DNA of 64,000 bases, taken from Aliiroseovarius sp. F20344. Its GTDB lineage: Bacteria > Pseudomonadota > Alphaproteobacteria > Rhodobacterales > Rhodobacteraceae. The notes under the pieces were generated by a model. That model was not told the origin of the DNA and made no database searches. It saw only the letters and a program-made list of their open reading frames with translations. Shown piece after piece: positions 24,276 through 45,118 of this stretch. The DNA lies in NCBI RefSeq assembly GCF_023016155.1, contig NZ_JALKBG010000003.1:124001-188000 (forward strand), written 5' to 3'. A program made the translations under genes and the position numbers. Every line of letters starts with the position of its first letter. Position 1 is the first letter of the stretch.

Positions 24276-25151
24276 TTAGGTCTCTGTAAATAAGTAGAAA
24301 TGCCTGGCCGTGTTCCTGAATACCGTATCGTGGTTTGAAGGCGAAACAAGTCGACGATAGGAGTCAGCAACAGACCCATAATCCGAGTAAAGCTTATCCA
24401 CCGGGAAGTTTGAGCCAAACATGCTGCGCTCAGGGCCGAATTGGTTCAGGCAAGTTTCCACGATTGGGCGAATACTCTCGTTCGTCCAGTTGTGATCAAA
24501 CATCCCCAGCCCGGACAGTTTGCAAAACACCTGTGGCAGCGCCGAGAGGTGCTCTAATTTCACCCCCCAATTGGCCAACCTTTCGGCTGAGCGGTCATGC
24601 GGGGACCCTGCGTGGCAGAGAGCGACCTTCGTATCGGGCGCACGTTCTAGAACTTGTGCCGTTTTCCTCATCAGTTCAGGGATAAGCTGCAAGTCGAAGC
24701 TTAAACCGCGTGCGCCAGCTTCTCGCAAACCTTCGACAAGCTTTGGGTTGTTCAAAAGGTCGTTCGTTCCGGTCGTCGCATCCTCTTCCGGCGCACGGCC
24801 AACAATCTGGCGCACACCAACAACGGTAGATAGGCTTTGAAATGCATCCAGCTGCTTGTTCAGGTCCGGCGCGGTGAGATCACAGAACACCACTTGTTTC
24901 AAAGGCCAGTCCGGGTTTGCATCGGCAACAGATTGAACCCAACGCGCTTCTTCCAAGCCATCTTCGGCGCCGACTTGAATGTGCACTGAACCTGTGAAGC
25001 CGTGGGGGGCTGCATCTGCACGAAATTCATCCAGCAAGTAGTCCCGTTGGATGGGCGCCGGGTCCCCAAAAAACCGCCTAACGCCTTTTGCCATCAGCCA
25101 CGGGTAGTGCACCGCTTTCAGATCCCAAAGATGGTGGTGTGCGTCAATCAT
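24276..25151 (-). CDS. amidohydrolase family 2 protein (lactonase-like)
   Basis: A 291-residue TIM-barrel hydrolase of the amidohydrolase-2 group, which includes L-fuconolactonase, 2-pyrone-4,6-dicarboxylate hydrolase and 4-sulfomuconolactone hydrolase. The N-terminus DAHHHLWDLK gives the metal-binding HxH. VGVRQIVGRAPEED, VALCHAGSP and a late MFGSNFPVDKLYSDY with the conserved Asp follow. The likely reaction is hydrolysis of a sugar or dicarboxylic lactone formed by the oxidoreductases of this locus (inferred). Its ATG overlaps the stop of the upstream SnoaL gene (ATGA), so both are translated from one transcript reading away from the LacI operators. Confidence 0.85.
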   Translation of the reverse strand: MIDAHHHLWDLKAVHYPWLMAKGVRRFFGDPAPIQRDYLLDEFRADAAPHGFTGSVHIQVGAEDGLEEARWVQSVADANPDWPLKQVVFCDLTAPDLNKQLDAFQSLSTVVGVRQIVGRAPEEDATTGTNDLLNNPKLVEGLREAGARGLSFDLQLIPELMRKTAQVLERAPDTKVALCHAGSPHDRSAERLANWGVKLEHLSALPQVFCKLSGLGMFDHNWTNESIRPIVETCLNQFGPERSMFGSNFPVDKLYSDYGSVADSYRRLVSPSNHDTVFRNTARHFYLFTET

Positions 25152-26188
25152 GGCGTGGCTCCGCGGGCACCGGTTTCGTGGCCTGCTGCAATATTGGTCG
25201 TGCGGGCAAGGATGTCGATGCCCTGCATGTTCCAGAAATGCAGCAGGTCAATGAAGATCCAGTTTTCGGCCAGCTTGTCTCCGTCGCGGCGGTAGATATC
25301 AATCACCCGAAATTCGGCTGGTGTTTGGGTCGCTGGCATACCCATGAACCCGCCTGTTGGCGTCGCCATGAAATTCGGCCATCCGAAAAAGCCGCCAAAA
25401 CTACCTTCGGCCAATCGCGCAATATGTTGGGTTCTTGTGCGATCGGTCAGCCCGGCGCGAAATGGGCCGGAATGCTGTTTGGCGTAACGCTCGATTGTGT
25501 AAGTGGCTCCGATTCCTGCAGGCCCCCACCAGATCATGCCCTCTGACCAGGTTTGGCGAAGTTCATCTTCAAGGCTAAGTTCACTGTCCCATTGCCCAAG
25601 ATCACGGATCATCTGTTGGATAATGTCCAGCGTTTTACGTCCTTCTTCGGGATCCTGCGCATCGAACATCAAACCATCATGGGTCATCGGCCCAGGCTGT
25701 ACCAGATGGGCAGCAGTTTGAGGTGGAAACGGTTCAAGGCCTGCTTGCATCATCAGATGTGGAATATCGAAATACATCGCGGTCTCGGAGATCTCGCCAT
25801 TTTCGACGCGGTGAAACTCACAATAGCGTAGCATGGCGATTTTGCCTGTCGGTGGGATGCCAAGCCAAGGTTTATCAAACAACCCCATCAGATGACCCAT
25901 CGAGACCACCCAAACACCGCCCTGACCTTCGATCGTGTTTTGTCCGGCCATGAACACATCCATGCGCCGCTGCATGCTGGAAAGCGCTGTTTTCAGGGGC
26001 GACCAGAACTGGTCCGCGACTTCTTTCGCACACCGAATCTCGTGAAAGGGGTGAAAGCCGCGCCATAGGTAATCGTCCGCGACATACTGTTCCTGCACCG
26101 AGTGCATTTCGGCCTTCGTCGCCGCATCAAACTGGGCATAGTAATCTCTAACAAATTGTTTTTCTTTCTGAAAAGAAGCGTTTTTCAT
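25148..26188 (-). CDS. two-domain SnoaL-like (NTF2-fold) protein 1
   Basis: A 346-residue protein made of two NTF2/SnoaL-like alpha+beta domains. The first (about residues 30-165) includes GIPPTGKIAMLRYCEFHRVENGEI and the second (about 210-330) includes MIWWGPAGIG and KLAENWIFIDLLHFWNMQGIDIL. SnoaL folds act as cyclases, isomerases, hydrolases or lactonases; the catalytic residue cannot be assigned here. It is a paralogue of the proteins at 30836 and 35185, sharing the WxGP.G.G and ENW..(V/I)D motifs. It is first gene of the minus-strand operon, 28 bases from the nearer LacI-type operator. Confidence 0.85.
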   Translation of the reverse strand: MKNASFQKEKQFVRDYYAQFDAATKAEMHSVQEQYVADDYLWRGFHPFHEIRCAKEVADQFWSPLKTALSSMQRRMDVFMAGQNTIEGQGGVWVVSMGHLMGLFDKPWLGIPPTGKIAMLRYCEFHRVENGEISETAMYFDIPHLMMQAGLEPFPPQTAAHLVQPGPMTHDGLMFDAQDPEEGRKTLDIIQQMIRDLGQWDSELSLEDELRQTWSEGMIWWGPAGIGATYTIERYAKQHSGPFRAGLTDRTRTQHIARLAEGSFGGFFGWPNFMATPTGGFMGMPATQTPAEFRVIDIYRRDGDKLAENWIFIDLLHFWNMQGIDILARTTNIAAGHETGARGATP

Positions 26189-26215
26189 GTGGGACTAAGC
26201 CTTGCCTGAGTCGTT

Positions 26216-26233
26216 TTTGCATACGTTTGCAAA
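26216..26233. promoter_or_regulatory. LacI-type operator 1
   Basis: TTTGCATACGTTTGCAAA is an 18-bp near-palindrome with the central CG typical of LacI/GalR operators. It lies 28 bases upstream of the minus-strand SnoaL start and 78 bases upstream of the ABC ATPase. The operon itself encodes a LacI regulator (36989), the natural candidate to bind it. Confidence 0.85.
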
Positions 26234-26269
26234 AATACCTTGCCAAAGCGCCGGAGTGGAGTCTAGCCT

Positions 26270-26287
26270 TTTGCAAACGTATGCAAA
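26270..26287. promoter_or_regulatory. LacI-type operator 2 (inverted copy)
   Basis: TTTGCAAACGTATGCAAA is the exact reverse complement of operator 1, with matching flanking T/A runs. The two centres are 54 bases apart, about five helical turns. It ends 23 bases before the ATG of the ABC ATPase, so binding here should block the plus-strand operon directly. Confidence 0.85.
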
Positions 26288-26310
26288 ACGATTCCGCCCG
26301 GGGAGGAACC

Positions 26311-27360
26311 ATGGCCGAAATTCAACTGCGCAATCTTTCCAAGCGCTGGGGCAGTTTTGTTGGCGTCGACAATTTCGACCTGACGATTGCCGATAAAGAG
26401 TTTCTTGTTCTGCTCGGACCTTCAGGGTGCGGCAAAACCACGACAATGCGGATGATCGCGGGATTGGAGGATGTGACCGAAGGGGATATTCTGGTTGATG
26501 GTGAGCGCGTCAACGACCTTGAGCCTAAAGATCGTGATGTGGCGATGGTGTTCCAAAGCTACGCGCTTTACCCAAACATGAACGTCTATGAGAACATCCG
26601 CTTTCCGCTGAAAGTACGGGGCATCGATCCTGCCACGCATGACGAAAAAGTTCGACGCGCCAGCGCAATGGTTGAGCTGGATGAGTTCTTACATCGCAAG
26701 CCCGCTGAACTGTCTGGCGGCCAACGCCAGCGAGTGGCTTTGGCTCGCGCAATTGTACGTGAGCCCAATGTGTTCTTGATGGATGAACCCCTATCGAACC
26801 TCGATGCCAAGCTGCGTGTCTCGACCCGCGCGCAGATCAAGAACCTCAGCCACGAGCTGGCTGTGACCACGATCTATGTGACCCATGACCAGATCGAAGC
26901 GATGACATTGGCCGACCGCGTTGTTGTGATGAAACAAGGCGTGGTTCAGCAAGTCGGCAGCCCGACCGAAATCTATGACGCCCCCGCAAATGCTTTTGTC
27001 GCAAGCTTCATCGGCAGTCCGGCTATGAACCTTGTGGAAGGTGAATTACAGGGCGGCGTATTCCGCGCAAAGAACACCGAGATCTCGGGGCTGAACGGGC
27101 CAGATGGCAAAGTCACGCTTGGCTTCCGGGCGGAGGATGCCGAGGTCGTTGAAAGCGGCGGCGAGATCAACGCCCCGATCTATACAATGGAGCTTTTGGG
27201 GGACGCCACGATGGTGTCAGTCCGCATCAGCGGCGCCTTGGTCAGCGTGAAAGCAGACAAGACCTTCCGCGCGGAAATCGACGACGCTGTATCCATCCGT
27301 GTCCACAAAGATCACTGCCACCTGTTCGATACAGAAACAGGGGCGCGTATCGAAGGTTAA
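26311..27360 (+). CDS. ABC transporter ATP-binding protein, MalK/UgpC-like (CUT1)
   Basis: A 349-residue ATPase energising import by the binding protein and permeases just downstream. Walker A is GPSGCGKTT (residues 36-44), the Q-loop is in VFQSYALYPNMNVYEN, the signature is LSGGQRQR and Walker B is VFLMDEPLSNLD, followed by the switch His in YVTHDQ. The C-terminal ~110 residues form the MalK-type regulatory OB domain. Subfamily and gene order fit carbohydrate or polyol uptake (CUT1). The ATG follows GGAGGAACC. The frame is open upstream to 26227, but that stretch contains the operators and is not coding. First gene of a long plus-strand operon. Confidence 0.95.
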   Translation: MAEIQLRNLSKRWGSFVGVDNFDLTIADKEFLVLLGPSGCGKTTTMRMIAGLEDVTEGDILVDGERVNDLEPKDRDVAMVFQSYALYPNMNVYENIRFPLKVRGIDPATHDEKVRRASAMVELDEFLHRKPAELSGGQRQRVALARAIVREPNVFLMDEPLSNLDAKLRVSTRAQIKNLSHELAVTTIYVTHDQIEAMTLADRVVVMKQGVVQQVGSPTEIYDAPANAFVASFIGSPAMNLVEGELQGGVFRAKNTEISGLNGPDGKVTLGFRAEDAEVVESGGEINAPIYTMELLGDATMVSVRISGALVSVKADKTFRAEIDDAVSIRVHKDHCHLFDTETGARIEG

Positions 27361-27440
27361 ACCTTCGCAACTTCCCGCAGAGCGGGGCAATCGGGTGCAG
27401 GCTTCGAAGGTGCATCCAACCAAACAGGGAGAGAGACGAT

Positions 27441-28667
27441 ATGTTTCTGAAACACGCAGCATTGGCCAGTGCATTGGCCTTGATGGCCGGAACGGCAATG
27501 GCAGATTGCCAGATCTCCGGCAATGTCAGCATTGTTGGCAACGAATTTCCGGCCATTCACACAGTCGCAAATGGTGCCGCGCAATGTGCCGGCGGCGAGG
27601 TGAAATCGAATCTGACCGCCGATCACCAAAAGATCAACGTTGCAGGCATGCAGGGCAACCCGGCTGAGTACTCGACAGCCATTATCGCTAACTCGTCGGT
27701 TGTTGCCCTGATGAACGAGGATGTGATCCGTCCGCTCGACGATCTTGTCGCCGAATACGGACAGGACATCCCGAAAAACCAGCTGATCACCATCGGTGGC
27801 AAAGTCATGGCTGTTGCCTTCATGGCAAACGCCCAGACGCTCGCCTATCGTAAGGACGTGCTGGAAGAAATCGGCGTTGACGTTCCAAAAACCTATGAAG
27901 ACGTTTTGGCTGCCGCTGAGAAAATCCGTGCCGCTGGCATCAGCCAGTATCCCGTTGGTGGCGCTTACGCCGCTGGCTGGAACCTCGCCGAGGAATTCGT
28001 GAACATGTATGTCGGCCACGGTGGTGAGTTCTTCAAACCCGGCTCTGCAGAAGTTGCAATCAACAATGAACAAGGTGTTGCCGCGCTTGAGATGATGAAA
28101 GCGCTGACCGCGTACATGAACCCCGATTTCCTGACCCATGACAGCAACGCCACCGGCGCCGAGATGGAAGCAGGCAACGTTATGTTGATGAACATGTGGG
28201 GCTCGCGCATGGGCAACCTGATGGATGAGGAAGGCGCTGAAGAGCAGGTCTACTCTAACATCACCGTTGGTGCGCCGTTGACCGTTGGTGGTGGTTCGAC
28301 CCCGGCATCGACCCTGTGGTGGGACGGCTGGACTGTCGCCAAGAACATCTCAGACGAAGATGCTGTTGCCACGTTCCTCGCGATGAAGCACGGCACAAGC
28401 CCTGCCATTCTGAACGACGAAACGATGAGCCAGGCCGTCTGGATGATTGAAGGCTACACGCCTGCGCCAGTAAATGACGGCGTATTCGCAGCCATCGAAA
28501 TGGGCACCCAGTCCTACCCGATGCTGCCTTACCAGGGCTTGCTGCATACAGCTTTGGGCGACAACTTGGCAGACTTCCTGTTGGGCAAAGAATCGGCTGA
28601 ACAAGCACTCGCCGACGCGGAAGCCGCGTATACAGCCGCCGCAAAAGAAAAAGGTTTCCTTCAGTAA
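27441..28667 (+). CDS. extracellular solute-binding protein family 1 (CUT1 importer)
   Basis: A 408-residue periplasmic binding protein with a Sec signal peptide (FLKHAALASALALMAGTAMA, cleaved at about residue 22). The mature protein has the two-lobe family 1 pattern, with VPKTYEDVLAAAEKIRAAG, a Trp-rich pocket region (STLWWDGWTVAKNIS) and a closing helix (AEQALADAEAAYTAAAKEKG). Two Cys early in the mature chain may form a disulfide. The ligand cannot be predicted reliably; family relatives bind mono- or oligosaccharides, polyols or glycerol phosphate. It is followed by a strong stem-loop that probably raises its mRNA level over the permease part. Confidence 0.93.
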   Translation: MFLKHAALASALALMAGTAMADCQISGNVSIVGNEFPAIHTVANGAAQCAGGEVKSNLTADHQKINVAGMQGNPAEYSTAIIANSSVVALMNEDVIRPLDDLVAEYGQDIPKNQLITIGGKVMAVAFMANAQTLAYRKDVLEEIGVDVPKTYEDVLAAAEKIRAAGISQYPVGGAYAAGWNLAEEFVNMYVGHGGEFFKPGSAEVAINNEQGVAALEMMKALTAYMNPDFLTHDSNATGAEMEAGNVMLMNMWGSRMGNLMDEEGAEEQVYSNITVGAPLTVGGGSTPASTLWWDGWTVAKNISDEDAVATFLAMKHGTSPAILNDETMSQAVWMIEGYTPAPVNDGVFAAIEMGTQSYPMLPYQGLLHTALGDNLADFLLGKESAEQALADAEAAYTAAAKEKGFLQ

Positions 28668-28680
28668 GGAAACTCAACTG

Positions 28681-28708
28681 GTCCGGGGCAACACTGTTTG
28701 CCCCGGAC
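28681..28708 (+). promoter_or_regulatory. intercistronic stem-loop after the binding-protein gene
   Basis: GTCCGGGGCAA and TTGCCCCGGAC form a perfect 11-bp stem around the 6-base loop CACTGT, 13 bases after the binding-protein stop. There is no T-run, so it is more likely an RNA-stabilising or attenuating element than a full terminator. This matches the usual excess of binding protein over permease in ABC import operons. Confidence 0.75.
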
Positions 28709-28748
28709 AATCCCTCGCATCAACAGACAACCCCGAGGCACCTGGACA

Positions 28749-29771
28749 ATGAAACATAGATCGTTCTTTTGGTTTGTTCTTCCGTCAGCCTTGGCGATGT
28801 TGTTGTTTATCTTCTTTCCAATCATTTCGGTGATTGTTCAGTCCTTCCATGTCGAGCATGAACAGGTCATCAAAACTGTTGAAACCTGCGACCTGTTTGG
28901 GTGCAAAGAATCCACGACCATTGACCAAGAGGCCACGGCGGCTTTGAAAGAAGCAAAGCCTTTGGGCCAGTTTGCTGGGTTTAAAACCTATCTCGACCGC
29001 AATCACCTCGCCACAAGCGAAGTCAGCGCGACCTGGAACAGAACCAACAGCTGGCGTGATTTCGGGGCGCAAATGCTGAACCTGCCCTTCTATAAGGCAA
29101 TTGGGTTCACCCTGACCTTCACGTTTGTTGTCACACCGCTGGTCATCATCCTTGGATTTGTCATTGCCGTGGCAGTCAACAGCGCGGCCAAACGGCTGCG
29201 TGGCGTACTGATCTTCTTCTCGCTACTTCCCATGATGATCACGCCGCTTGTTGGCGCATTGATCCTGTTCTGGATGGTTGATGCACGTGGGATCATCGGA
29301 ACTACGCTGCAGTATCTGGCAGGCGATCCGGATCTATCTGTCAAAGCGTCAACGCCGCTGATGTGGATCATGCTGATGGTCTATGGCGTTTGGCATGCTG
29401 CCCCTTTTGCCTTCATCGTCTATTACGCGGGTCTTCAGACGGTCAGTCAGGACACGCTCGAGGCTGCACGCGTCGATGGGGCCAACCGCTGGCTGCAAAT
29501 ACGGCACGTCATTATCCCTCATTTGCTGCCCCTTACGACCTTCATCGCGCTGATGCAGCTGATGGATAATTTCAGAGTCTTTGAGCCGATCGTCAGTTTT
29601 GCTGCCAACGCACACGCAACGTCGCTAAGTTGGGCGATCTACAACGACCTAGGTGGAGAAACCCGACAGCTTTCGTCTGCGGCTGCGACCTCGGTTCTGA
29701 CAATTCTTGGTGTGGCCATTCTGTTGTCACCAGTCCTCGTGCGCACATGGCGCGAATTCGATCGGAAGTAG
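28749..29771 (+). CDS. ABC transporter permease, MalF-type
   Basis: A 340-residue inner-membrane permease with about six spans. The first span is FFWFVLPSALAMLLFIFFPIIS. A periplasmic insertion of roughly 90 residues follows, with a Cys pair (CDLFGC) before the core of five helices. The cytoplasmic EAA loop EAARVDGANRWLQIRHVIIP, which docks on the ATPase, is well preserved. The start ATG 28749 is placed right before the first span; an upstream TTG at 28698 falls in the stem-loop. It pairs with the MalG-type permease 7 bases downstream. Confidence 0.92.
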   Translation: MKHRSFFWFVLPSALAMLLFIFFPIISVIVQSFHVEHEQVIKTVETCDLFGCKESTTIDQEATAALKEAKPLGQFAGFKTYLDRNHLATSEVSATWNRTNSWRDFGAQMLNLPFYKAIGFTLTFTFVVTPLVIILGFVIAVAVNSAAKRLRGVLIFFSLLPMMITPLVGALILFWMVDARGIIGTTLQYLAGDPDLSVKASTPLMWIMLMVYGVWHAAPFAFIVYYAGLQTVSQDTLEAARVDGANRWLQIRHVIIPHLLPLTTFIALMQLMDNFRVFEPIVSFAANAHATSLSWAIYNDLGGETRQLSSAAATSVLTILGVAILLSPVLVRTWREFDRK

Positions 29772-29778
29772 GTGAAAT

Positions 29779-30660
29779 ATGTCTAGCAAATTGAAACGCC
29801 AACCCCCTGCCATTTCGCTTCTGGTCTTTACCGTTCTGGCCATCTGGATGATCCTAGCCGCCTTTCCGTTCCTTTGGACGCTATGGGGGTCTTTCAAGGT
29901 CGAAGGCGACTTCTTCTCTAAGGCCGACTGGGCCAACGCCATCAAGGGTACCCTGACGCAGGCCGAAACCGGCGGCAGCTTTACCGGCGACGGCTACTAT
30001 GGGGCATGGGTTCAGGAAGAGTTCTGGCGCGCGGCGTTGAACTCCGTGATCGTCTGCATTTTCGTGGTTTCGATTTCTTTGACCCTTGGCACACTTGGCG
30101 GATACGCACTGGCACGTTCCACCTATCGCTACGCGTTCTGGTTCTTGCTGGCAGCCCTGATTTTCCGCGCCATGCCGCCAATCACGCTGGTTTCAGGATA
30201 TTTGCCGGTGTTTTTCCAATGGAACCTTTGGGGTCACACCGCGACAACGATCATCGTCCTGGTTGCCATCAATCAACCCTTCACGCTGTGGATGCTGCAT
30301 TCGTTCTTTAAAAACATTCCGGCCGAGCTGGACGAAAGCGCGATGGTTGATGGCTGCACCCGCTTTCAGGCGTTTCGCAACGTGATCATTCCGGTGATGT
30401 GGCCGGGAGTGATCACCACAGGACTGTTTTCATTCCTTCTGGCCTACAACGACTTTGCGGTCACGGCGATGCTGCTGTCGAAAGAAAACCAAACCATGAT
30501 CCCAAAGATCAACAGCTTCCTTGGCACCACTCAGACCAAGGGCAATGTGATGTTCGCGGTCTCTGCTGTTGTCTCGGTGACAGCGCCTTTATTCCTGATG
30601 GTTTTGTTCTTCCAGCGCCAGATTGTTGGTGGCTTGACCGCCGGCGCGGTCAAAGGGTGA
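29779..30660 (+). CDS. ABC transporter permease, MalG-type
   Basis: A 293-residue permease with six predicted spans, starting AISLLVFTVLAIWMILAAFPF. The EAA loop is ESAMVDGCTRFQAFRNVIIP, and the C-terminal FFQRQIVGGLTAGAVKG is typical of CUT1 MalG-like subunits. The first periplasmic loop (about residues 40-80, with SKADWANAIKGTLTQAETGG) is longer than usual, like the loop of the partner permease. This suggests a shared extracytoplasmic feature that contacts the binding protein. It is cotranscribed with the preceding permease. Confidence 0.93.
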   Translation: MSSKLKRQPPAISLLVFTVLAIWMILAAFPFLWTLWGSFKVEGDFFSKADWANAIKGTLTQAETGGSFTGDGYYGAWVQEEFWRAALNSVIVCIFVVSISLTLGTLGGYALARSTYRYAFWFLLAALIFRAMPPITLVSGYLPVFFQWNLWGHTATTIIVLVAINQPFTLWMLHSFFKNIPAELDESAMVDGCTRFQAFRNVIIPVMWPGVITTGLFSFLLAYNDFAVTAMLLSKENQTMIPKINSFLGTTQTKGNVMFAVSAVVSVTAPLFLMVLFFQRQIVGGLTAGAVKG

Positions 30661-30835
30661 CGCGGTGGGGCGCTGCAACCCTCAATCGGTCCATGCCCAT
30701 GCGCGCAGTGCTGGCTTGAATGTCGCTGCGCGCCGGTCAAGGAGACCAGGGCGGATTCCATTTGCTTCAACGCGGGCCGGGCCATGTGCCCGCACCGTCG
30801 AAGCAATTAGAATTCCAGTTTAAAAGGACGGCCCA

Positions 30836-31822
30836 ATGCGCTCCCTCGACCGAACCCCTTACCTTGAATATGCCGCCGCGCAACGCCATCCTGGCAACTT
30901 CGCCCCGGCAACAGAACGTTTCTTTTCACCCAACGCCCAAATCAACGTGGTGCACCCGTTCAACGAAACTGGCAACGGCAGCTGCTATCACCATGCGGTG
31001 ATTGCGCCGCTTCAGGCAGCCTTTTCCGGACTGTATCGCCGCGACGATATCGTTATGGCAGGACAGTTTGAAGATGGCGATTGGATCACCGCCACTGGTT
31101 ATTACGTCGGTCACTTCAGCAGTGACTGGATAGGCATTCGGGCCACGGGTCGGTTGGCCTATCTGCGATACGGTGAATTTCACCGGATGGAAAACGGTGT
31201 CTCGGTGGAAAGCTATATCTATCTGGACATCCCGGAACTGATGATCGCATCGGGTCAATGGCCCATCTCTACCGGCCCGGGCAATGAGCGTGGATATACC
31301 GGCATGATCCACGGACCGGCTACGCGAGATGGTGTCATGATCCAGCCGCAGGATCCGGAAGAAAGTGCGAAAAGCTACCAGATCACCTCGGACATGTTGC
31401 TAAAGCTGGCGACCAAGGACGAAGCTTGGCGGCCTTATTGGCACGAAAACATGATGTGGTATGGCCCCGGTGCGTTCGGGTCATTCATCGGGATCGAGCA
31501 TTTCGCATCCTTCCAGGTGCCCTTTGAAGGCCAATTCGACGGCTGGTCGGGTGGATCAAAGAACAACGGCATGACCCGCCATTTCACGCGTTTCGGCGAT
31601 GGCAACTACTCCTGTTCGGGCGGGTGGCCTTCGCTGACTGGCGTCAATGTCAAATCCTTCCTTGAACAGGAACCTACTGGCGAGCGCGTTTTCATGCGTG
31701 TCTGCGACTGGTGGCGCCGCGAGGACGAACTTCTGGTCGAAAACTGGGTCTTTGTGGATGTTCCCCACGTGCTCAAGCAACTCGGACTTGATCTGTTTGC
31801 TGATCTGGAGATCGCGGGATGA
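30836..31822 (+). CDS. two-domain SnoaL-like (NTF2-fold) protein 2
   Basis: A 328-residue paralogue of the protein encoded at 25148. The N-terminal domain has IGIRATGRLAYLRYGEFHRMENG and the C-terminal domain has ENMMWYGPGAFGSFIGIEHF, a Gly/Ser-rich loop, and LLVENWVFVDVPHVLKQLGLDLF. A central NERGYTGMIHGPATRDGVMIQPQDPEE segment joins the halves. The pattern suggests an enzyme with two active sites or one catalytic and one degenerate domain; the reaction is unknown. A 175-base leader with no gene separates it from the permease, and AAAAGGA precedes the ATG. Its stop overlaps the GMC oxidoreductase start (ATGA). Confidence 0.85.
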   Translation: MRSLDRTPYLEYAAAQRHPGNFAPATERFFSPNAQINVVHPFNETGNGSCYHHAVIAPLQAAFSGLYRRDDIVMAGQFEDGDWITATGYYVGHFSSDWIGIRATGRLAYLRYGEFHRMENGVSVESYIYLDIPELMIASGQWPISTGPGNERGYTGMIHGPATRDGVMIQPQDPEESAKSYQITSDMLLKLATKDEAWRPYWHENMMWYGPGAFGSFIGIEHFASFQVPFEGQFDGWSGGSKNNGMTRHFTRFGDGNYSCSGGWPSLTGVNVKSFLEQEPTGERVFMRVCDWWRREDELLVENWVFVDVPHVLKQLGLDLFADLEIAG

Positions 31823-36228: not shown

Positions 36229-36992
36229 TGACCCTGCCCAAAACCCCTTCATTCCGCCTTGATGGCAAACGCGCGTTAGTGGCCGGTGCTAGCTCTGGTA
36301 TTGGGTTGGCGTGCGCTGCCGCATTAGGTGAAGCTGGGGCACAGGTAACATTGGCTGCCCGTCGCGCAGACGTTCTGGACGACCTGGTTGCTGAGATGCA
36401 GGCGGCAGGCATGTCCGCCAACGCACTGCCTTTGGATGTGGCGGATGTGGCGGGCACACAGGCAGCCATCGCAGAAAATGGGCCATTCGACATCCTTGTA
36501 AACTCTGCCGGGCTGGCGCGCCATAGCCCGGCCAGCGAAACGACAGAAGATGATTTTGACGCGGTCGCAAACCTGAACGTGAAAGGCGCTTACTTCCTGA
36601 CACAGGCGGTCGCCAAGGGGCTGGTTGCTGCGGGCAAACCCGGAAGCCTGATCAATATCTCGTCGCAGATGGCGCATGTGGGCGGGCTGGATCGCGCGGT
36701 TTATTGCGCCACCAAACACGCGGTTGAGGGTTTCACGAAATCCATGGCGATCGAGTGGGGCAAAGCGGGCATTCGGGTCAACACGATCTGCCCAACCTTC
36801 ATTCTGACCGACCTGACCCGATCAACTTTCGAGCAACCAGACAAACGTGCGTGGATCGAAGACAAGATCAAGTTGGGGCGCGTAGGCGAGGTTGGAGATA
36901 TCATGGGCGCGGTAACCTATCTCGCTTCCGATGCCTCGGCATTGGTAACCGGCTCAGCCCTGATGATCGACGGAGGCTGGACCGCAGAATGA
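36228..36992 (+). CDS. short-chain dehydrogenase/reductase
   Basis: A 254-residue classical SDR. The cofactor loop is AGASSGIGLA (residues 19-28), NSAG lies at about 91-94, and the catalytic triad is Ser145, Tyr158 and Lys162 (NISSQMAHVGGLDRAVYCATK). The C-terminus has VTGSALMIDGGWTAE, typical of the family. It would oxidise or reduce a secondary alcohol or ketone with NAD(P). Its start overlaps the SnoaL gene and its end overlaps the LacI regulator (ATGA), so it is an integral operon member. Confidence 0.94.
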   Translation: MTLPKTPSFRLDGKRALVAGASSGIGLACAAALGEAGAQVTLAARRADVLDDLVAEMQAAGMSANALPLDVADVAGTQAAIAENGPFDILVNSAGLARHSPASETTEDDFDAVANLNVKGAYFLTQAVAKGLVAAGKPGSLINISSQMAHVGGLDRAVYCATKHAVEGFTKSMAIEWGKAGIRVNTICPTFILTDLTRSTFEQPDKRAWIEDKIKLGRVGEVGDIMGAVTYLASDASALVTGSALMIDGGWTAE

Positions 36993-38008
36993 ACACAACC
37001 AAGGTCACATCCCAACAAGTTGCCGAACGCGCAGGTGTCAGCCAATCGGCTGTCAGCCGTGTGTTCACACCTGGGGCCTCCGCTTCCAAAAAGACGATTG
37101 AGAAGGTGCGCAAAGCGGCAGCTGAGCTGGGCTATCGCCCAAATGTTCTGGCCCGGGCGATGGTGTCAGGCAAAAGCCGGATCATTGGCTTGATCGTGGC
37201 CTACCTGGAAAACCAGTTCTACCCCGAAGCGCTTGAAAAACTGTCGAACGAGCTGCAACAGCGTGGCTATCACGTTCTTATCTTTCTGGCCGAGCAAACG
37301 GCAGGAAATATCGACGCGGTTGTAGAGGAAATTCTTGATTATCAAGTGGATGGAATCATCGCAGCCTCGGTCGCCATGTCGTCAGACCTGTCCGAACGCT
37401 GCCGGGCCGCAGGCGTGCCGATGGTGCTGTTCAACCGGAGCCAAGATGACCCGAACATGTCAGCCGTAACCTCGGACAACTATGCTGGTGGGCGCAAGAT
37501 TGCAGAGTTCCTGCTGGCCGCTGGGCATCGCAAAATCGGCCACATCGCAGGGTGGGAAGGCGCATCAACCCAACGTGACCGAGAGGCGGGCTTCATCTCG
37601 GCGCTCGCTGAGGCGGGGGTTACTTTGCATTCCCGTGCCTCGGGCGATTTCACCATGGAGAAAGCCGCCGAAGCCACCCGTAAGATGTTTGCATCAGACC
37701 CACCCGAAGCCGTCTTCGTCGCCAACGACCATATGGCTGTCGCAGTCATGGATACGCTGCGGTTTGAACTTGGCCTGAAGGTGCCCGACGACGTTTCGGT
37801 CGTGGGGTTCGACGATGTGCCTGCCGCTGGTTGGCCGGCCTATGACCTGACCACTGTGCGCCAACCTGCCAATCGCATGGTCGCTGACACGGTCGAAATC
37901 CTGCTCGACCAAATTGAAAACAACCAAGGCGAACCACGCCGGATCGCCATTGATGGCCCGCTGATCCTGCGCGGATCAGCCCGCATTCCAGAAGGATGGA
38001 CCACATGA
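36989..38008 (+). CDS. LacI-family transcriptional regulator
   Basis: A 339-residue LacI/GalR-type regulator. The N-terminal helix-turn-helix reads VTSQQVAERAGVSQSAVSRVF, followed by the hinge region LGYRPNVLARAMVSGKS. A PBP1-like effector domain follows, with IIGLIVAYLENQFYPE, VVGFDDVPAAGWPAYDLTTVRQP and a C-terminal RGSARIP. It probably represses the divergent operons by binding the two operators at 26216-26233 and 26270-26287 and is released by the imported substrate or an intermediate (inferred). Being inside the operon, it would autoregulate. ATG overlaps the SDR stop; the longer open frame upstream is a shadow of the SDR gene. Confidence 0.94.
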   Translation: MNTTKVTSQQVAERAGVSQSAVSRVFTPGASASKKTIEKVRKAAAELGYRPNVLARAMVSGKSRIIGLIVAYLENQFYPEALEKLSNELQQRGYHVLIFLAEQTAGNIDAVVEEILDYQVDGIIAASVAMSSDLSERCRAAGVPMVLFNRSQDDPNMSAVTSDNYAGGRKIAEFLLAAGHRKIGHIAGWEGASTQRDREAGFISALAEAGVTLHSRASGDFTMEKAAEATRKMFASDPPEAVFVANDHMAVAVMDTLRFELGLKVPDDVSVVGFDDVPAAGWPAYDLTTVRQPANRMVADTVEILLDQIENNQGEPRRIAIDGPLILRGSARIPEGWTT

Positions 38009-38979
38009 AGGGATTTAACCCAAAGTTTACCGATTTCCCGGACTACATCCTGAAAATTACCCGAGAGATCTGGGAAGAGCGCGGCATCGCCACTCTGAAC
38101 CACTATTATGCCGAAGACATCCCGATGCGCTTTCCCGAGGGCGTGTCGATCGGCAACCAACGCACGATGAATGGCACGCTGGCCACGCTGGCTGAATTTC
38201 CGGACCGCGAATTGACGGGCGAGGATGTGATCTGGTCCGGCAACGAAGACGATGGTTTTCTATCTTCGCACCGCTTGCTGACCATGGGTACGCATACGGG
38301 CGGCGGCTATTTCGGACCTGCCACCGGCAAGCGGTTCGTGATCCGCGCCATTGCCGATTGCGCCGCGATCAATGACCAGATCAACGATGAATGGCTGATC
38401 CGCGACACCGCAGGCATTGTTTTGCAATTGGGAATGAAACCCAAAAAATTCGCACGCAACCTGATCGCGCGTGAAGGTGGACCGGCGCATTGCGTCAAAC
38501 CGTTCTGCCCCGCTGTCGATGTCGAAGGCCCTTACAAAGGGCGCGGCAACGACAACGAATGGGGAGCACGAATGGCCGACATCCTGACCCGGATGATGGA
38601 CAAGGATTTTGCCGTGATCCGTGCCGAGTACGACCGCGCCGTACAGACCGAGCATCCAGCCTCAACCACCGTGCATTCATGGGCGGATACTGAAAAGCTC
38701 TGGATGGGGCTGCGCGCGTCTTTCCCGAATGCAGAGTTTAAAATCGAGCACCAGATTGGGCGCGAAGATCCCATGCTTTCGCCGCGTGCTGCTATCCGTT
38801 GGAGCCTGCATGGCAAGCACGATGGATGGGGCATGTTTGGCCAGCCGACTGGGGCTGACGTCTATGTGATGGGCTTCACCCACGCGGAGTTTGGACCATA
38901 CGGATTGCGCCGTGAATGGACATTGTTTGACCATGTCTCGATCTGGAAGCAGATCCTGATGCAGACGGGTGATCTATGA
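38005..38979 (+). CDS. two-domain SnoaL-like (NTF2-fold) protein 5
   Basis: A 324-residue NTF2-fold protein with two domains. The first has ITREIWEERGIATLNHYYAED, IPMRFPEGVSIGNQ and INDEWLIRDTAGIVLQLGM, and the second has SWADTEKLWMGLRASFPNAEF and LRREWTLFDHVSIWKQIL. It is more distant from the other paralogues and lacks the WYGPAGIG motif. The N-terminal half matches the polyketide-cyclase-like ester cyclase pattern. AAGGA 8 bases before ATG 38005 supports this start, which overlaps the LacI stop. It is one of five SnoaL proteins in this locus. Confidence 0.82.
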   Translation: MKGFNPKFTDFPDYILKITREIWEERGIATLNHYYAEDIPMRFPEGVSIGNQRTMNGTLATLAEFPDRELTGEDVIWSGNEDDGFLSSHRLLTMGTHTGGGYFGPATGKRFVIRAIADCAAINDQINDEWLIRDTAGIVLQLGMKPKKFARNLIAREGGPAHCVKPFCPAVDVEGPYKGRGNDNEWGARMADILTRMMDKDFAVIRAEYDRAVQTEHPASTTVHSWADTEKLWMGLRASFPNAEFKIEHQIGREDPMLSPRAAIRWSLHGKHDGWGMFGQPTGADVYVMGFTHAEFGPYGLRREWTLFDHVSIWKQILMQTGDL

Positions 38980-39251
38980 AAATTGGTCTATCAGTTGGTG
39001 AGCAAGGTGAAGCGATCTTATTCATGGATAGGAAGGCACGCGATGTAATCGTTGAGCGGCTCATGGCGCTTGAGCTTCCTGAGGGCAACTCATCAAATGA
39101 GCATTTCCATCTAATTTCGGAAGCTTGGGGCGGTAACGACCTGAGCGAACTCAATGAAGAAACGCTGAAAACCTTGAAGCATTCACAAGGACATCATTTG
39201 AAATTTCTTTTTCGACCCGAACGAAGCGAAGTTTGGAAGGATGAGGAATGA
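38976..39251 (+). CDS. Imm32-like small protein
   Basis: A 91-residue protein with the pattern SNEHFHLISEAWGGNDLSEL followed by KHSQGHHLKFLFRPE. This resembles the Imm32 family of immunity proteins found in polymorphic toxin loci (H.HL....WGG.eL ... HH.K). No toxin gene is nearby, and it sits inside a catabolic operon with its ATG overlapping the SnoaL stop (ATGA). It may be an orphan immunity protein, or the fold may have been reused. The family assignment is from memory of the motif and is moderate. Confidence 0.6.
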   Translation: MKIGLSVGEQGEAILFMDRKARDVIVERLMALELPEGNSSNEHFHLISEAWGGNDLSELNEETLKTLKHSQGHHLKFLFRPERSEVWKDEE

Positions 39252-39349
39252 AACTTTTCGAAACCTTCCAGCTAAAACATCGTCATGGCTTCTTGGCATC
39301 TTTGCGCGCGCGTCGGCTAAACAATCGTCCCCCCGGAGGGCGGGTTTGA
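39248..39349 (+). CDS. possible 33-residue peptide
   Basis: A short frame overlapping the stop of the Imm32-like gene (ATGA): MKLFETFQLKHRHGFLASL and a basic tail ending in PPGGRV. GAGGA lies just upstream of the ATG. It could be a real small product or a coupling leader; composition alone cannot decide. Its stop codon lies in the hairpin that precedes the bicupin gene. Confidence 0.25.
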   Translation: MKLFETFQLKHRHGFLASLRARRLNNRPPGGRV

Positions 39350-39362
39350 ACCACTCAAACCC
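39342..39362 (+). promoter_or_regulatory. intercistronic hairpin before the bicupin gene
   Basis: GGGTTTGA and TCAAACCC form a perfect 8-bp stem with loop ACCAC. It ends 8 bases before the GGAG ribosome-binding site of the bicupin gene. No T-run follows, so it may be a processing or stability element rather than a terminator. Confidence 0.5.
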
Positions 39363-39382
39363 AAACCAAAGGAGATTAGAAA

Positions 39383-40345
39383 ATGAGTAACATTGAGAAC
39401 CACATCGTTCGCTACGGCGATCTGAAGCCCTGTAAAACCGCCTTCATCGACGCCCATACGCCGGGGTCGGATCAGAAGGAAAACTTCACCATCATCGGTG
39501 GCGGTGTGTCTGAAAGCCCTGACCAGCACGTGCATATCGCTGACCAGATCGGATTCAACATTGGCGCCGCTGGCCAACCACCACGTTGTCGCAACTCGCT
39601 GCATGACCACAACACCGCCGAGGTCTTCTTTGTCCTGAAGGGAAAGTGGCGGTTCTTCTGGGGCCGTTGGGGTGATGCTGGCGAGGTGACGTTGGAAGAG
39701 GGTGACATCTTCAACATCCCGACCGGCATATTTCGCGGGTTTGAAAACATCGGCACTGACTATGGAATGATCATGGCGGTCCTTGGCGGCGACGACGCTG
39801 GTGGTGGCGTGCATTGGGCACCACAGGTGATCGAGGATGCGGCGGACCATGGCCTCGTGCTGGGCGAAAACGGGGTGCTCTATGACACGAAGAAGGGCGA
39901 TGAACTGCCCCACAACGTCAATCCCATGCCGCTCATGTCAGATGAAGACCTGGCCAAGCGGGCCGAGCCGACCACGGCAGACGTTCTGCCAAATCACGTT
40001 GCACGATACTGGGACTTGATGGCGTTGTCAGACAAACAGCCTGCCACGGTCATTGGTGCCGACGCGATCCTGCGTGATCGTCCCGGGTTCGAGGTGGATT
40101 TCCTGTCGCGCAACTCGATCTCGCCTGATGTGCACACGCATGATCAGAACACCGTTCTGATGCCTGTGCGCGGGCATTGGAAAGTCAGTATCCAAGGGGA
40201 AGAAAGTGTTCTGAACCCAGGCGACACCTGCCTGATCAAAGCAGGCGAGGCGCATTCCGTCACGCCGTCTATGACGGGCGAAGCCAGCCTCTATCGTATC
40301 CGCGCAACGGACGACCCAGCTGGCCTGACCGGTTCGGTAGAATAA
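39383..40345 (+). CDS. bicupin protein, gentisate dioxygenase-like
   Basis: A 320-residue protein with two cupin domains. The first has NSLHDHNTAEVFFVLKGKWRFFWG and EGDIFNIPTGIFRGFEN (about residues 72-120), with His residues placed to bind a metal. The second has DVHTHDQNTVLMPVRGHWKV and PGDTCLIKAGEAHS (about 250-300). The layout is like gentisate 1,2-dioxygenase and other bicupins, which cleave aromatic rings or act as oxygenases or isomerases. No other aromatic-degradation gene is certain here, so ring cleavage is only one option. A good GGAG precedes ATG 39383. Confidence 0.82.
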   Translation: MSNIENHIVRYGDLKPCKTAFIDAHTPGSDQKENFTIIGGGVSESPDQHVHIADQIGFNIGAAGQPPRCRNSLHDHNTAEVFFVLKGKWRFFWGRWGDAGEVTLEEGDIFNIPTGIFRGFENIGTDYGMIMAVLGGDDAGGGVHWAPQVIEDAADHGLVLGENGVLYDTKKGDELPHNVNPMPLMSDEDLAKRAEPTTADVLPNHVARYWDLMALSDKQPATVIGADAILRDRPGFEVDFLSRNSISPDVHTHDQNTVLMPVRGHWKVSIQGEESVLNPGDTCLIKAGEAHSVTPSMTGEASLYRIRATDDPAGLTGSVE

Positions 40346-40365
40346 TCAAAGGGAGAGCGCCCATT

Positions 40366-41490
40366 ATGACCAAGATTAAGACAACTCATGTGGGCTCTTT
40401 GCCGCGCACTCAGGACGTCGTGGATTTCATTTTCGCGCGCGAGAACGAAACGCCATTTGATCAGGCCGCATTTGATACGTGTATGACCTCGGCCGTCTCG
40501 GACACAGTTCGCAAACAGGTTGAGGCTGGGATCGACATTGTCTCGGACGGTGAAACGTCCAAGATTTCCTATGCCACTTATGTGAAGGATCGCTACACCG
40601 GTTTTGGGGGTGACAGCCCGCGCAACGCGCCCGCCGATCTGAAGATGTTCCCGGGTTTTCTGCAGCGGTTGGCGGATGACGGTGGCACGCCGCAATATGC
40701 GCGCCCAATGTGCGTGGGTGAGGTGAAGTCCAAGGGGCAAGGCGAGCTTGAGAAAGACATCGCGAACCTCAAGGCCGCAATGGACGAGCATGGTGCGGAA
40801 CGTGGTTTCATGAACGCCGCCAGCCCCGGTGTGATTTCGCTCTTCCTGCAGAATGACTACTACAAATCGCGTGAGGCCTATCTGGCAGCTCTGGCCGACG
40901 CTATGAAGACGGAATACGAAACCATCGTTGCTTCGGGGCTGGATCTTCAACTGGATTGCCCAGACCTTGCCCTGTCGCGTCACATGCTGTTCACCGACCT
41001 TTCAGATGACGAGTTCATCAAGGTGGCGAACTTGCATGTCGAGGCATTGAACCACGCGTTGTCCGACGTGCCTGCCGATAAAGTGCGCGTCCATATTTGT
41101 TGGGGTAACTACGAAGGTCCCCATTGCTGTGACATTCCAATGTCGAAGATGTTCGACACGCTGATGTCGACGAAATCGCGCTATGTGCTGTTTGAGACCT
41201 CTAACCCCCGTCACGGGCATGAATGGACGACCTTCCGCAATCGCAAGGCGGACATTCCTGATGACAAGGTTCTGGTGCCCGGCGTCGTCGACACCACCAC
41301 CAACTTTGTGGAACACCCTGAATTGGTTGCACAGCGCATTGAACGCTTCGTCGACATCGTCGGCACAGACCGCGTGATCGGCGGATCAGACTGCGGTTTT
41401 GGTACCTTTGCGGGCTTTGGCGCGGTCGACCCAGACATCGCCTATGCCAAACTGTCAGCCCTGTCCGAAGGGGCAGCGTTGGTCAAATGA
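40366..41490 (+). CDS. MetE-like zinc methyltransferase homologue
   Basis: A 374-residue UROD/MetE-fold protein. The zinc site of cobalamin-independent methionine synthase is preserved: His243 and Cys245 in VHICWGNYEG, Glu277 in LFETSN, and Cys343 in GGSDCGFG. The protein starts TKIKTTHVGSLPRTQDVVDF like MetE C-terminal relatives, but it lacks the N-terminal half of MetE. Relatives include methionine synthase II-type proteins and epoxyalkane:CoM transferase, all activating a thiol on zinc. It could remove or transfer a methyl or alkyl group of the substrate. GGGAGAG precedes ATG 40366. Confidence 0.85.
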   Translation: MTKIKTTHVGSLPRTQDVVDFIFARENETPFDQAAFDTCMTSAVSDTVRKQVEAGIDIVSDGETSKISYATYVKDRYTGFGGDSPRNAPADLKMFPGFLQRLADDGGTPQYARPMCVGEVKSKGQGELEKDIANLKAAMDEHGAERGFMNAASPGVISLFLQNDYYKSREAYLAALADAMKTEYETIVASGLDLQLDCPDLALSRHMLFTDLSDDEFIKVANLHVEALNHALSDVPADKVRVHICWGNYEGPHCCDIPMSKMFDTLMSTKSRYVLFETSNPRHGHEWTTFRNRKADIPDDKVLVPGVVDTTTNFVEHPELVAQRIERFVDIVGTDRVIGGSDCGFGTFAGFGAVDPDIAYAKLSALSEGAALVK

Positions 41491-42179
41491 CGCCACTTGT
41501 CCTGATCCCCGGCATGATGTGCGACGCGAGGCTGTTTGAGCCCCAGATCGCTGCATTTTCGGGCCGTCGGGCCGTCATTTGTGCTCCGATCTCGGCGCAT
41601 TCCAGCGTCGAGGAATTGGCAGCGGGTATTTTGTCTTATGCACCGTCGCGGTTCGCGTTGCTGGGCCTGTCGATGGGCGGGATCGTTGCGATGGAAATCT
41701 TGAAGCAGGCCCCCGAGCGGGTAGAGCGTATAGCCCTTCTTGACACCAACCCCTTGGCCGAACAAGAGGTGGTAAAAACCCGTCGTCTGCCCCAGATGAT
41801 GGCCGTGCGCGAGGGCAATCTTTCCTCGGTCATGCGCGACGAAATGAAACCCAATTATCTAAGCGACGGCCCGCGCAAAGCTGCGATCCTCGATCTTTGC
41901 ATGGATATGGCGCTCGAACTCGGGCCGCATGTCTTTCTGAACCAATCGCGTGCCCTGATGGACCGCCCCGATCAGTCCGAGACATTGCGAAACACCGATC
42001 TCCCCGCATTGGTTCTGTGCGGGCGAGAAGATACGCTCTGCCCGGTGTCTCGCCACGAACTGATGGCCGAGTTGATCCCGGATGCGCGGCTCGAAATTAT
42101 CGAGGGGGCCGGTCATTTGCCGACATTAGAGCAACCGGAAAATACCAATGCAGCGCTTGCCCGCTGGCTGGAGGATTAA
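41487..42179 (+). CDS. alpha/beta hydrolase
   Basis: A 230-residue alpha/beta hydrolase. The nucleophile elbow is LGLSMGG with Ser62, an Asp-containing loop (CGREDTLCPVSRH) follows, and the His is in EGAGHLPTLEQPE. The oxyanion loop LIPGMMCDARLFE is typical of small esterases and C-C hydrolases. It would cleave an ester, lactone or ring-opened product in the pathway. Its ATG overlaps the preceding stop (ATGA) and the next gene starts directly after its stop. Confidence 0.9.
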   Translation: MTPLVLIPGMMCDARLFEPQIAAFSGRRAVICAPISAHSSVEELAAGILSYAPSRFALLGLSMGGIVAMEILKQAPERVERIALLDTNPLAEQEVVKTRRLPQMMAVREGNLSSVMRDEMKPNYLSDGPRKAAILDLCMDMALELGPHVFLNQSRALMDRPDQSETLRNTDLPALVLCGREDTLCPVSRHELMAELIPDARLEIIEGAGHLPTLEQPENTNAALARWLED

Positions 42180-42875
42180 ATGGACGACACGCTTCTAAAC
42201 CTGCTGAAGAAGGTCGACACACCGACCGTGTGCAATGCCATCGAAGTGGCGCAAGGCAAACGCGGGTTCAACGCTTTCACACGTGGCACGATGTTGGCCT
42301 CACATCCCGATGCACCCGCCATGGTCGGATACGCACGCACTGCAAAGATCGCAGCTGTGGCGCCGCCAGAAGAACCACCGGAAGTCATCAAATCCCGCCG
42401 CATGGATTACTATCGTCATATGGCCGAAGGGCCGCGCCCAGCCATCTCGGTTGTGGAAGACATCGATTTCCCACATTGCATCGGCGCATATTGGGGCGAG
42501 ATCAACACGACGGTTCACAAAGGCTTTGGCCTGTCTGGTGCATTGACCAACGGCGTAATGCGCGATCTGGGGGATCTACCCGACGAATTCCCAGTCGTCG
42601 CCGGCTCCATCGGCCCCAGCCATGGGTTTGTGCATGTAAAAGAGATCGGAACAACCGTATCCGTGTTCGGTTTGGAGATTGCCGATGGAGATTTGGTTCA
42701 CGCCGACCGGCATGGCGCGCTTGTCATTCCGCCCGAGGTTCTTCCAGATCTGGAAGAGGCCATCCACCGTCTGCTCGACACTGAAAAACTGGTTCTTGAA
42801 CCCGCACGCAAGGACGGATTTGATTTCGACGCTTTCGAAGCTGCGTGGGCAGCCTTTGAAGCTGCACGTACCTAG
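42180..42875 (+). CDS. RraA-like aldolase/decarboxylase
   Basis: A 231-residue member of the RraA/HMG aldolase family. The core GLSGALTNGVMRDLGDLP carries Arg128 and Asp129 used for metal and oxyanion binding in 4-hydroxy-4-methyl-2-oxoglutarate aldolase, and GDLVHADRHGALVIPPE is the second conserved block. The likely reaction is a retro-aldol or decarboxylation releasing pyruvate from a 4-hydroxy-2-oxo acid, a plausible last step of the pathway. It starts on the base after the hydrolase stop, with GGAGGA upstream, and is the last recognised gene of the plus-strand operon. Confidence 0.88.
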   Translation: MDDTLLNLLKKVDTPTVCNAIEVAQGKRGFNAFTRGTMLASHPDAPAMVGYARTAKIAAVAPPEEPPEVIKSRRMDYYRHMAEGPRPAISVVEDIDFPHCIGAYWGEINTTVHKGFGLSGALTNGVMRDLGDLPDEFPVVAGSIGPSHGFVHVKEIGTTVSVFGLEIADGDLVHADRHGALVIPPEVLPDLEEAIHRLLDTEKLVLEPARKDGFDFDAFEAAWAAFEAART

Positions 42876-45107: not shown

Positions 45108-45118
45108 GAGATAATCAG

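Follow-up and report, generated by a model that had tools for sequence, protein, structure and literature searches.

A LacI-controlled catabolic locus with five SnoaL-fold proteins in Aliiroseovarius and its possible role in the degradation of mycosporine-like amino acids

Organization of the locus

We analyzed a stretch of 64,000 nucleotides (the window) from the 3.36-Mb genome of Aliiroseovarius sp. F20344 (contig NZ_JALKBG010000003.1, positions 124,001 to 188,000), in which a catabolic locus occupies positions 24276–42875. Translation together with Pfam and NCBIfam scans resolves two divergent operons that share one promoter region, one with two open reading frames (ORFs) on the minus strand (24276–26188) and one with 17 on the plus strand (26311–42875), a 91-amino-acid ORF included. 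An earlier note, made from the sequence of this window, had described the same arrangement and the same protein families, and both were confirmed. Its figure of about 16 rightward genes becomes 17 once the 91-amino-acid ORF is counted, and its remark that most junctions overlap by 1–4 bases was too generous: 8 of 17 junctions, about half, overlap, seven of them by 1–4 bases and one by 13 (if the earlier start is taken).

The left operon begins with Sno1, a tandem SnoaL-fold protein (25148–26188, minus strand; PF07366/PF12680) with an AlphaFold2 predicted local distance difference test (pLDDT) score of 91, and continues with an amidohydrolase of the L-fuconolactonase-like kind (24276–25151, minus strand; PF04909, Amidohydro_2, 113 bits), which scores 110 bits against the NCBIfam fuconolactonase model, far under its equivalog cut-off of 400. 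The right operon, entirely on the plus strand, opens with a CUT1-type ABC importer consisting of a UgpC-like ATPase (26311–27360; NCBIfam NF008653, 453 bits, exceeding the cut-off of 432), a solute-binding protein (27441–28667; Pfam SBP_bac_1) and two permeases (permease 1, 28749–29771; permease 2, 29779–30660; both PF00528, BPD_transp_1). Behind the importer lie the genes for Sno2, a tandem SnoaL protein (30836–31822; PF07366, 39.5 bits); a GMC oxidoreductase (31819–33336; PF00732/PF05199); Sno3s, a single-domain SnoaL protein (33381–33860; PF07366, 77 bits); a zinc alcohol dehydrogenase of the HisD/HpsN fold (33875–35185; PF00815, 443 bits); Sno4, again of tandem length (35185–36228; PF07366, 83 bits); an SDR dehydrogenase (36228–36992; PF13561, 191 bits); a LacI-family regulator (36989–38008; PF00356 and PF13377); and the tandem protein Sno5 (37996–38979; PF07366, 64 bits). 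The 91-amino-acid ORF (38976–39251) overlaps Sno5 by 4 bases; it matches no Pfam or NCBIfam family and was not hit in the 12 relatives or the best 80 bicupin loci described below. The operon ends with a bicupin (39383–40345), recognized by alignments and fold matches, a MetE-like zinc enzyme (40366–41490; PF01717, Meth_synt_2), an alpha/beta hydrolase (41487–42179) whose nearest NCBIfam models are PcaD-like and score below cut-off, and an RraA-like aldolase or decarboxylase (42180–42875; PF03737, 53 bits). The five SnoaL/NTF2 proteins named in the earlier note are thus all present, four of tandem length and one with a single domain. By BLAST, Sno1, Sno2 and Sno4 are 32–33% identical to one another, and Sno5 matches Sno3s alone among its paralogues, weakly.

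The gap between the Sno1 and ATPase genes holds two 20-bp near-palindromes with a central CG, the candidate LacI operators: TTTTGCATACGTTTGCAAAA (26215–26234, plus strand) and, 54 bp on, its reverse complement (26269–26288, plus strand). Both match the operator pattern without a mismatch and are its only exact matches in the genome; with up to three mismatches allowed, 0.01 sites would be expected in the window. Twin sites 54–55 bp apart are found in the same gap in nine genomes, this one included, and a single site in two more. Because a LacI gene lies within the operon and the predicted twin operators in the promoter gap are conserved, there is good evidence that this catabolic locus is under LacI control, as had been proposed. 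With up to two mismatches the genome holds three sites, the operator pair and one on another contig. This third site, a perfect palindrome two mismatches from the pattern, TTTTGCAACCGGTTGCAAAA (G000:C6:102746-102765; L237), perhaps belongs to another LacI regulator.

Conservation and co-occurrence of the genes

Relatives of Sno4 were sought in 61 genomes, 21 from the genus, 16 from other members of the family and 24 from outside the family. They occur in 13 (the source genome included): 9 of the 21, 4 of the 16 and none of the 24. Gene order is mostly kept in these 13; in G034 the genes are spread over four contigs. The clusters contain the MetE-like gene in 11 cases, RraA in 10, the amidohydrolase in 9, and GMC and Sno2 in 4 each. 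Across the 12 relatives, Sno3s is 91–98% identical in 7 and the MetE-like protein 69–95% in 10. Nine flanking genes were also searched for in the 12 relatives; none recurs beside the cluster, and the flanking genes were dropped as members of the locus.

A broader sample came from scanning a species-level genome collection for the bicupin, which returned at least 556 stretches encoding relatives; the best 80 loci were read, three of which duplicate genomes of the first sample (L053 is G006, L059 is G020 and L118 is G017). Gene counts in these 80 are lower bounds, as contig ends and the 10-kb flank cut genes off, and those for the SDR, LacI and ATPase genes include low-identity paralogues. Matches were found to Sno5 in 63 loci, HisD in 60, SDR in 59, MetE in 52, GMC in 9 and Sno2 in 6. 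All nine core genes (HisD, Sno4, SDR, LacI, Sno5, bicupin, MetE-like, alpha/beta hydrolase and RraA) lie in the fetched stretch at 29 of the 80 loci, HTCC2150 and a Planktomarina metagenome-assembled genome among them. The core comprises Sno3s, HisD, Sno4, SDR, LacI, Sno5, bicupin, MetE-like enzyme, hydrolase and RraA, together with an exchangeable importer, while GMC and Sno2 are optional. The core put forward earlier, SnoaL-GMC-SnoaL-HisD-SnoaL-SDR-LacI, with oxidation by GMC as its first step, is ruled out by this synteny: GMC and Sno2 are each found in only 4 of the 13 clusters and, respectively, 9 and 6 of the best 80 loci, so that most loci lack GMC.

The third sample, 398 genomes spread over the phylum, was searched for the bicupin, Sno4 and the MetE-like enzyme. 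The bicupin occurs in 25 and Sno4 in 22, with 19 genomes carrying both. Within the family of the source genome, 16 of 27 genomes carry both markers and none carries one alone; outside it, the bicupin occurs in 9 genomes and Sno4 in 6, with 3 shared (Fisher p = 2e-4, uncorrected for kinship). MetE-like matches above 500 bits were found in 16 of the 398 genomes, all within the 19 that carry both markers; weaker matches (278–476 bits, 9 genomes) were left out of this count. The gene set is found again in other families and classes, and the expectation in the earlier note that the genes travel together is borne out.

What is swapped between carriers is the uptake system; the enzymes stay together. 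Three relatives of the same genus have a HisD protein 91–94% identical to that of the window and a solute-binding protein of merely 41% identity, with permease 1 likewise exchanged at about 41%. Two distant carriers, G067 and G343, have much of the enzyme set together with a TonB receptor and an SSF symporter, and no match to the CUT1 importer in the fetched stretch; TRAP importers are found in the Roseibium and G310 loci.

The enzyme set itself falls into two halves. A lower half (HisD-SDR-LacI-bicupin-hydrolase-aldolase) appears in stretches from Roseibium, with a CUT1 importer and an NTF2 gene nearby; from Klebsiella michiganensis, with MFS and HpcH/HpaI genes; and from Martelella and Sinorhizobium, with an amidase. 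An upper half stands by itself in the archaeon Halobellus limi, where five SnoaL genes (four encoding 329–339 amino acids and one 159) accompany a MetE-like gene and the lower half is not present in the stretch shown. Partial clusters occur in Salinivibrio (bicupin-HpcH-alpha/beta hydrolase) and Rhizorhabdus (SDR-alpha/beta hydrolase-HpcH-bicupin), as well as in Vibrio europaeus and Phaeobacter. In Salinivibrio kushneri (L169 9299-14596), a bicupin relative (31%), an HpcH/HpaI gene and an alpha/beta hydrolase gene lie directly behind otnK, an aldolase gene and otnI, an arrangement that hints at a tetronate-yielding substrate. In L101, L116 and L124 (about 3.9–7.9 kb), the core is preceded by an amidase-family gene and by a second HisD-fold gene (46–47%) that is read from the other strand, and most SnoaL genes are missing.

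Residue motifs and predicted folds of the core enzymes

The solved structures nearest to the HisD-fold enzyme are HpsN sulfopropanediol 3-dehydrogenases. Compared with HpsN of Cupriavidus pinatubonensis (PDB 8v35), the locus enzyme keeps the fold, the zinc ligands and the catalytic Glu and His (the matching zinc and catalytic positions are Gln251, His254, Asp353, His413, Glu319 and His320); it differs in the sulfonate motif. The HpsN paper, which supplies the discriminating motifs, gives this motif as GRY[AS]H, with His126 binding the sulfonate (PMC11382572); at the aligned GRYAH position the locus enzyme reads GKFPM. The change is shared by 73 of 76 homologues with at least 70% identity (one has GKFPL, and two are unmatched by the search expression), and among more distant matches seven have GKYPL and 13 are unmatched; these counts, like those for RraA below, include a few genomes twice. 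Neither the GRY[AS]H motif of HpsN nor the GSAPL motif of HisD is present in the enzyme, and the curated HisD model TIGR00069 scores 426 bits, above its cut-off of 243.8, so that model and motif disagree. Given the GKFPM motif, neither a sulfonate nor histidinol is expected as the substrate, despite that score; the residues suggest a CH2OH group beside a carbinol.

The metal site of cupin ring-cleavage dioxygenases has the pattern HxH...E...H. In the bicupin, the HxHxxxE motif (H74, H76 and E80) is invariant in 47 sequences, the usual fourth metal position is taken by F117/R118, and R118 is invariant in the alignments. The structural model (pLDDT 78, low at residues 24–50) matches oxalate decarboxylase, quercetinase, 3-hydroxyanthranilate dioxygenase and salicylate dioxygenase with template modelling scores of 0.40–0.52. 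These matches do not separate a dioxygenase from a decarboxylase; the protein is a candidate ring- or C–C-cleaving enzyme.

RraA-fold enzymes include the 4-carboxy-4-hydroxy-2-oxoadipate (CHA) aldolases LigK and GalC of protocatechuate and gallate 4,5-cleavage, whose motif is an acidic residue, 20 further residues and Arg-Asp. The RraA protein of the locus shares the fold and the motif, with Glu where Asp is usual, and E-X20-RD is found in 58 of 58 homologues; it scores 20.8 bits against the NCBIfam LigK model, far under the cut-off of 304.5. In L101, L116 and L124, an HpcH/HpaI aldolase replaces RraA at the same position, and Klebsiella, Rhizorhabdus, Salinivibrio and G310 likewise have HpcH/HpaI alongside the bicupin. 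That two unrelated aldolase families can stand at a single point of the pathway speaks for a final step of pyruvate-type aldol cleavage, which strengthens the earlier suggestion of aldol cleavage by RraA.

Neighborhoods of the MetE-like and SnoaL relatives

The MetE-like enzyme is far from the cobalamin-independent methionine synthases by model score (best NCBIfam MetE score 92 bits against a cut-off of 406). Zinc centers of the MetE type are liganded by His-x-Cys, Glu and Cys, and the residues of the enzyme agree with this pattern: the putative zinc residues H243, C245, E277 and C343 are invariant in 11 sequences and similar in Halobellus. Among plasmid records, 36 have a match to this protein, and the surroundings were read for nine (H64 and H83 included). 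Five loci of a sphingomonad type were read, from two sphingomonads of the plasmid collection (51–52% identical to the window protein) and three genomes of one family. A LigM-type O-demethylase (540 bits to LigM) lies near the MetE-like gene in four of the five, as does an NTF2-fold gene, again in four of five; in Novosphingobium pentaromativorans, genes for methylenetetrahydrofolate reductase (MTHFR) and PurU, and ligAB, follow. The SnoaL/MetE-like cluster of Halobellus limi likewise holds a LigM-type protein (365 bits). LigM and DesA are described as tetrahydrofolate-dependent O-demethylases of methoxylated aromatics (PMC8091115). The term methionine synthase is absent from two Novosphingobium papers. 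Because relatives of the MetE-like enzyme lie near LigM-type O-demethylases, an sp2 carbon of the substrate plausibly bears a methyl ether, and the earlier idea of demethylation by this enzyme gains support.

The sphingomonad loci resemble ours in their MetE-like protein, the frequent NTF2-fold gene and, once, C1-folate genes. They differ in that the present locus is without LigM and has tandem SnoaL genes, a CUT1 importer and the HisD-bicupin-RraA half, and by BLAST none of the SnoaL proteins encoded here significantly matches their NTF2 protein. In L077, genes for an S-adenosylmethionine (SAM) methyltransferase and a GH1 glycosidase stand between the bicupin and MetE-like genes (L077 10959-12924).

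Another neighborhood comes from Vibrio, in which a tandem SnoaL protein, 46% identical to Sno1, 33% to Sno4 and 29% to Sno2, is encoded in 40 of 148 genomes of the genus. Twenty of these 40 loci were fetched; they contain an SSF symporter gene in 19, an MFS gene in 19, an L-serine deaminase in 17 (assigned by Pfam SDH_alpha/SDH_beta), LacI in 16 and a porin in 15, and Vibrio europaeus is annotated with the same gene order, deaminase included. The deaminase beside the SnoaL gene would make sense if the SnoaL step released serine, and the neighborhood suggests that the substrate carries an amino acid. In Vibrio pelagius, PurU and sarcosine oxidase genes lie near the SnoaL genes, in what may be an ordinary betaine cluster.

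The SnoaL proteins of the locus belong to the PF07366 fold family of the polyketide cyclases, with profile matches to 8ysb, IdmH and SnoL. The polyketide cyclase systems differ from the locus, which has tandem fusions and a catabolic operon with an importer and no polyketide synthase. A sixth SnoaL-domain protein is encoded just outside the locus (43413–44183, minus strand; 256 amino acids, two matched stretches) and has no BLAST match to the five locus proteins at E 1e-3. It stands with a glyoxalase/VOC protein (together 43413–45056, minus strand) and adjoins a divergent LysR gene (45074–46012, plus strand).

Flanking genes

Upstream of the left operon, a gene at 21102–22775 (minus strand) encodes a 557-amino-acid protein with a pyridoxal phosphate domain of the serine hydroxymethyltransferase type, which is absent from the relatives' clusters. 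The locus is further flanked by a mannose-phosphate/YjbH-type exopolysaccharide region (13611–17977) and by sulfotransferase and polysaccharide pyruvyl transferase genes (46826–47650 and 47766–49037, both plus strand). The minus-strand ORF at 52637–63958 is 3773 codons long and has a neighbor of 1145 codons in the same orientation.

Discussion

Taken together, the neighborhoods and residue motifs suggest that the substrate bears an enol methyl ether, an amino acid and a CH2OH-bearing carbinol, a combination that mycosporine-like amino acids (MAAs), natural sunscreens that algae produce, fit best. The ring of MAAs, a 1,3-diketone-like cyclohexenone or imine, carries an enol methyl ether, a C(OH)CH2OH group and one or two amino acids (Gly, Ser or Thr). 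We tentatively favor the reading that the locus imports and degrades MAAs or a close relative, although we put its chance somewhat short of even. What the sequences show are the gene set, its co-occurrence, the operator sites, the residue motifs and the neighborhoods; the substrate and each reaction are inferred. What speaks for MAAs is how well the proposed steps fit together as chemistry (release of the amino acid, demethylation, ring cleavage and CH2OH oxidation). The CUT1 importer would take up the substrate, and LacI would leave the twin operators. The SnoaL-fold proteins, perhaps with the amidohydrolase, would then free the amino acids by acid-base chemistry on the vinylogous amide to give 4-deoxygadusol, from which the MetE-like zinc enzyme would remove the enol O-methyl group. 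The HisD-fold enzyme could oxidize the CH2OH beside the tertiary alcohol to a carboxylate, and the SDR enzyme a hydroxyl, after which the bicupin and the alpha/beta hydrolase would open the reductone or 1,3-diketone ring to a product of the CHA type. As CHA is a substrate of RraA-fold aldolases, RraA (HpcH/HpaI elsewhere) would cleave this product to pyruvate and a C4 acid. There is an appreciable but minority chance that this is the first genetically recognizable bacterial pathway for MAA consumption, in which tandem SnoaL enzymes strip amino acids, a corrinoid-free MetE-like zinc enzyme demethylates an enol ether, and the HisD-fold enzyme and RraA lead to pyruvate.

Habitat lends slight support, in that Halobellus limi comes from a marine saltern; the names of two carriers of the SnoaL and MetE-like genes (L069 and L109) derive, we presume, from a dinoflagellate and a red alga. 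Bacterial conversion of MAAs has been reported from chemistry (PMC3083659). In the open-access literature, as far as our search reached, we found no described pathway that matches the locus, in agreement with the earlier note, and no genes for MAA breakdown; subscription work may exist.

Several observations weigh against an MAA as the substrate. In Roseibium, Klebsiella, Martelella and Sinorhizobium, the lower half is found without the MetE-like gene and with no more than a single tandem SnoaL gene in the stretch shown; MAAs are no obvious food for these bacteria, so it must serve another or wider substrate. Eleven of the 80 best bicupin loci are without a HisD, SnoaL or MetE match of at least 40%. 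4-Deoxygadusol gives neither the SDR enzyme nor the lactonase-like amidohydrolase a clear job, and the bicupin fold is equally compatible with oxalate decarboxylase and seed vicilin. The deaminase link in Vibrio is one conserved neighborhood, not 17 independent events, and 3 of the 20 loci are without the deaminase. In Halobellus about 14 kb separate the LigM-type and MetE-like genes, and ten other MetE-like loci have no LigM-type neighbor (L239, L242-L245, four haloarchaea and Dietzia), those of the haloarchaea and Dietzia having no SnoaL neighbor either. A SAM methyltransferase gene inside five loci (L056, L077, L079, L093 and L103) is unexplained in a catabolic scheme. It is the unexplained SDR enzyme, amidohydrolase and methyltransferase, and the finding of the lower half in enteric as well as plant-associated bacteria, that keep our preference for MAAs tentative and make another methylated cyclitol or carbohydrate, such as an O-methyl inositol or a methylated sugar acid degraded in an inositol-like way, a serious if unlikely contender.

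Such a cyclitol would be dehydrogenated, dehydrated by SnoaL proteins, opened hydrolytically by the alpha/beta hydrolase, isomerized by an IolB-like bicupin and cleaved by the aldolase. The myo-inositol (Iol) pathway has this plan of dehydrogenation, ring opening, bicupin and aldolase in common with the locus; it draws on other enzyme families and has no counterpart of the tandem SnoaL and MetE-like proteins. A CUT1 importer and a LacI regulator are typical of carbohydrate loci, the amidohydrolase is lactonase-like, L077 has an inserted GH1 glycosidase gene, and the lower half occurs in plant-associated Sinorhizobium, all of which a sugar or cyclitol would account for; however, the locus genes include no Gfo/Idh-type dehydrogenase, IolE, IolD or sugar kinase, and the neighborhoods point to LigM-type O-demethylation and serine release. 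That importer and regulator would be unusual for aromatic compounds, which, together with a serine deaminase left unexplained and carriers from open water (L049 and L119) and a saltern, makes a methoxylated aromatic or lignin-like glycoside quite improbable, even though the sphingomonad MetE-like relatives lie near LigM and once near ligAB. The bicupin would in that case be a ring-cleavage dioxygenase (its fold matches include 3-hydroxyanthranilate and salicylate dioxygenases), the hydrolase a C–C hydrolase and RraA a CHA aldolase, and NTF2-fold lyases are indeed part of lignin dimer breakdown.

We think it rather unlikely that several unrelated short pathways merely share one regulator. The halves do occur apart (the lower half beside no more than a single tandem SnoaL gene, and SnoaL and MetE-like genes alone in Halobellus), and the solute-binding protein and permease 1 have been swapped while HisD stayed nearly the same, but the full concordance of the bicupin and Sno4 in the family, the presence of both in the distant carriers G067 and G343, and the single LacI gene and operator pair at the locus speak for one pathway. 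Catabolism of a sulfonate resembling dihydroxypropanesulfonate (DHPS) would follow from the structural kinship of the HisD-fold enzyme to HpsN; the replacement of GRY[AS]H by GKFPM in nearly all close homologues contradicts it, no sulfolyase family is represented among the locus genes, and we consider it very improbable.

Should the substrate prove to be an MAA, the turnover of nitrogen-bearing, UV-screening compounds would have a gene marker in this locus. Should it be another compound, the locus still points to a common, so far unrecognized nutrient and offers testable functions for the tandem SnoaL proteins, for a third class of HisD-fold dehydrogenase and for a MetE-like enzyme with a role other than methionine synthesis.

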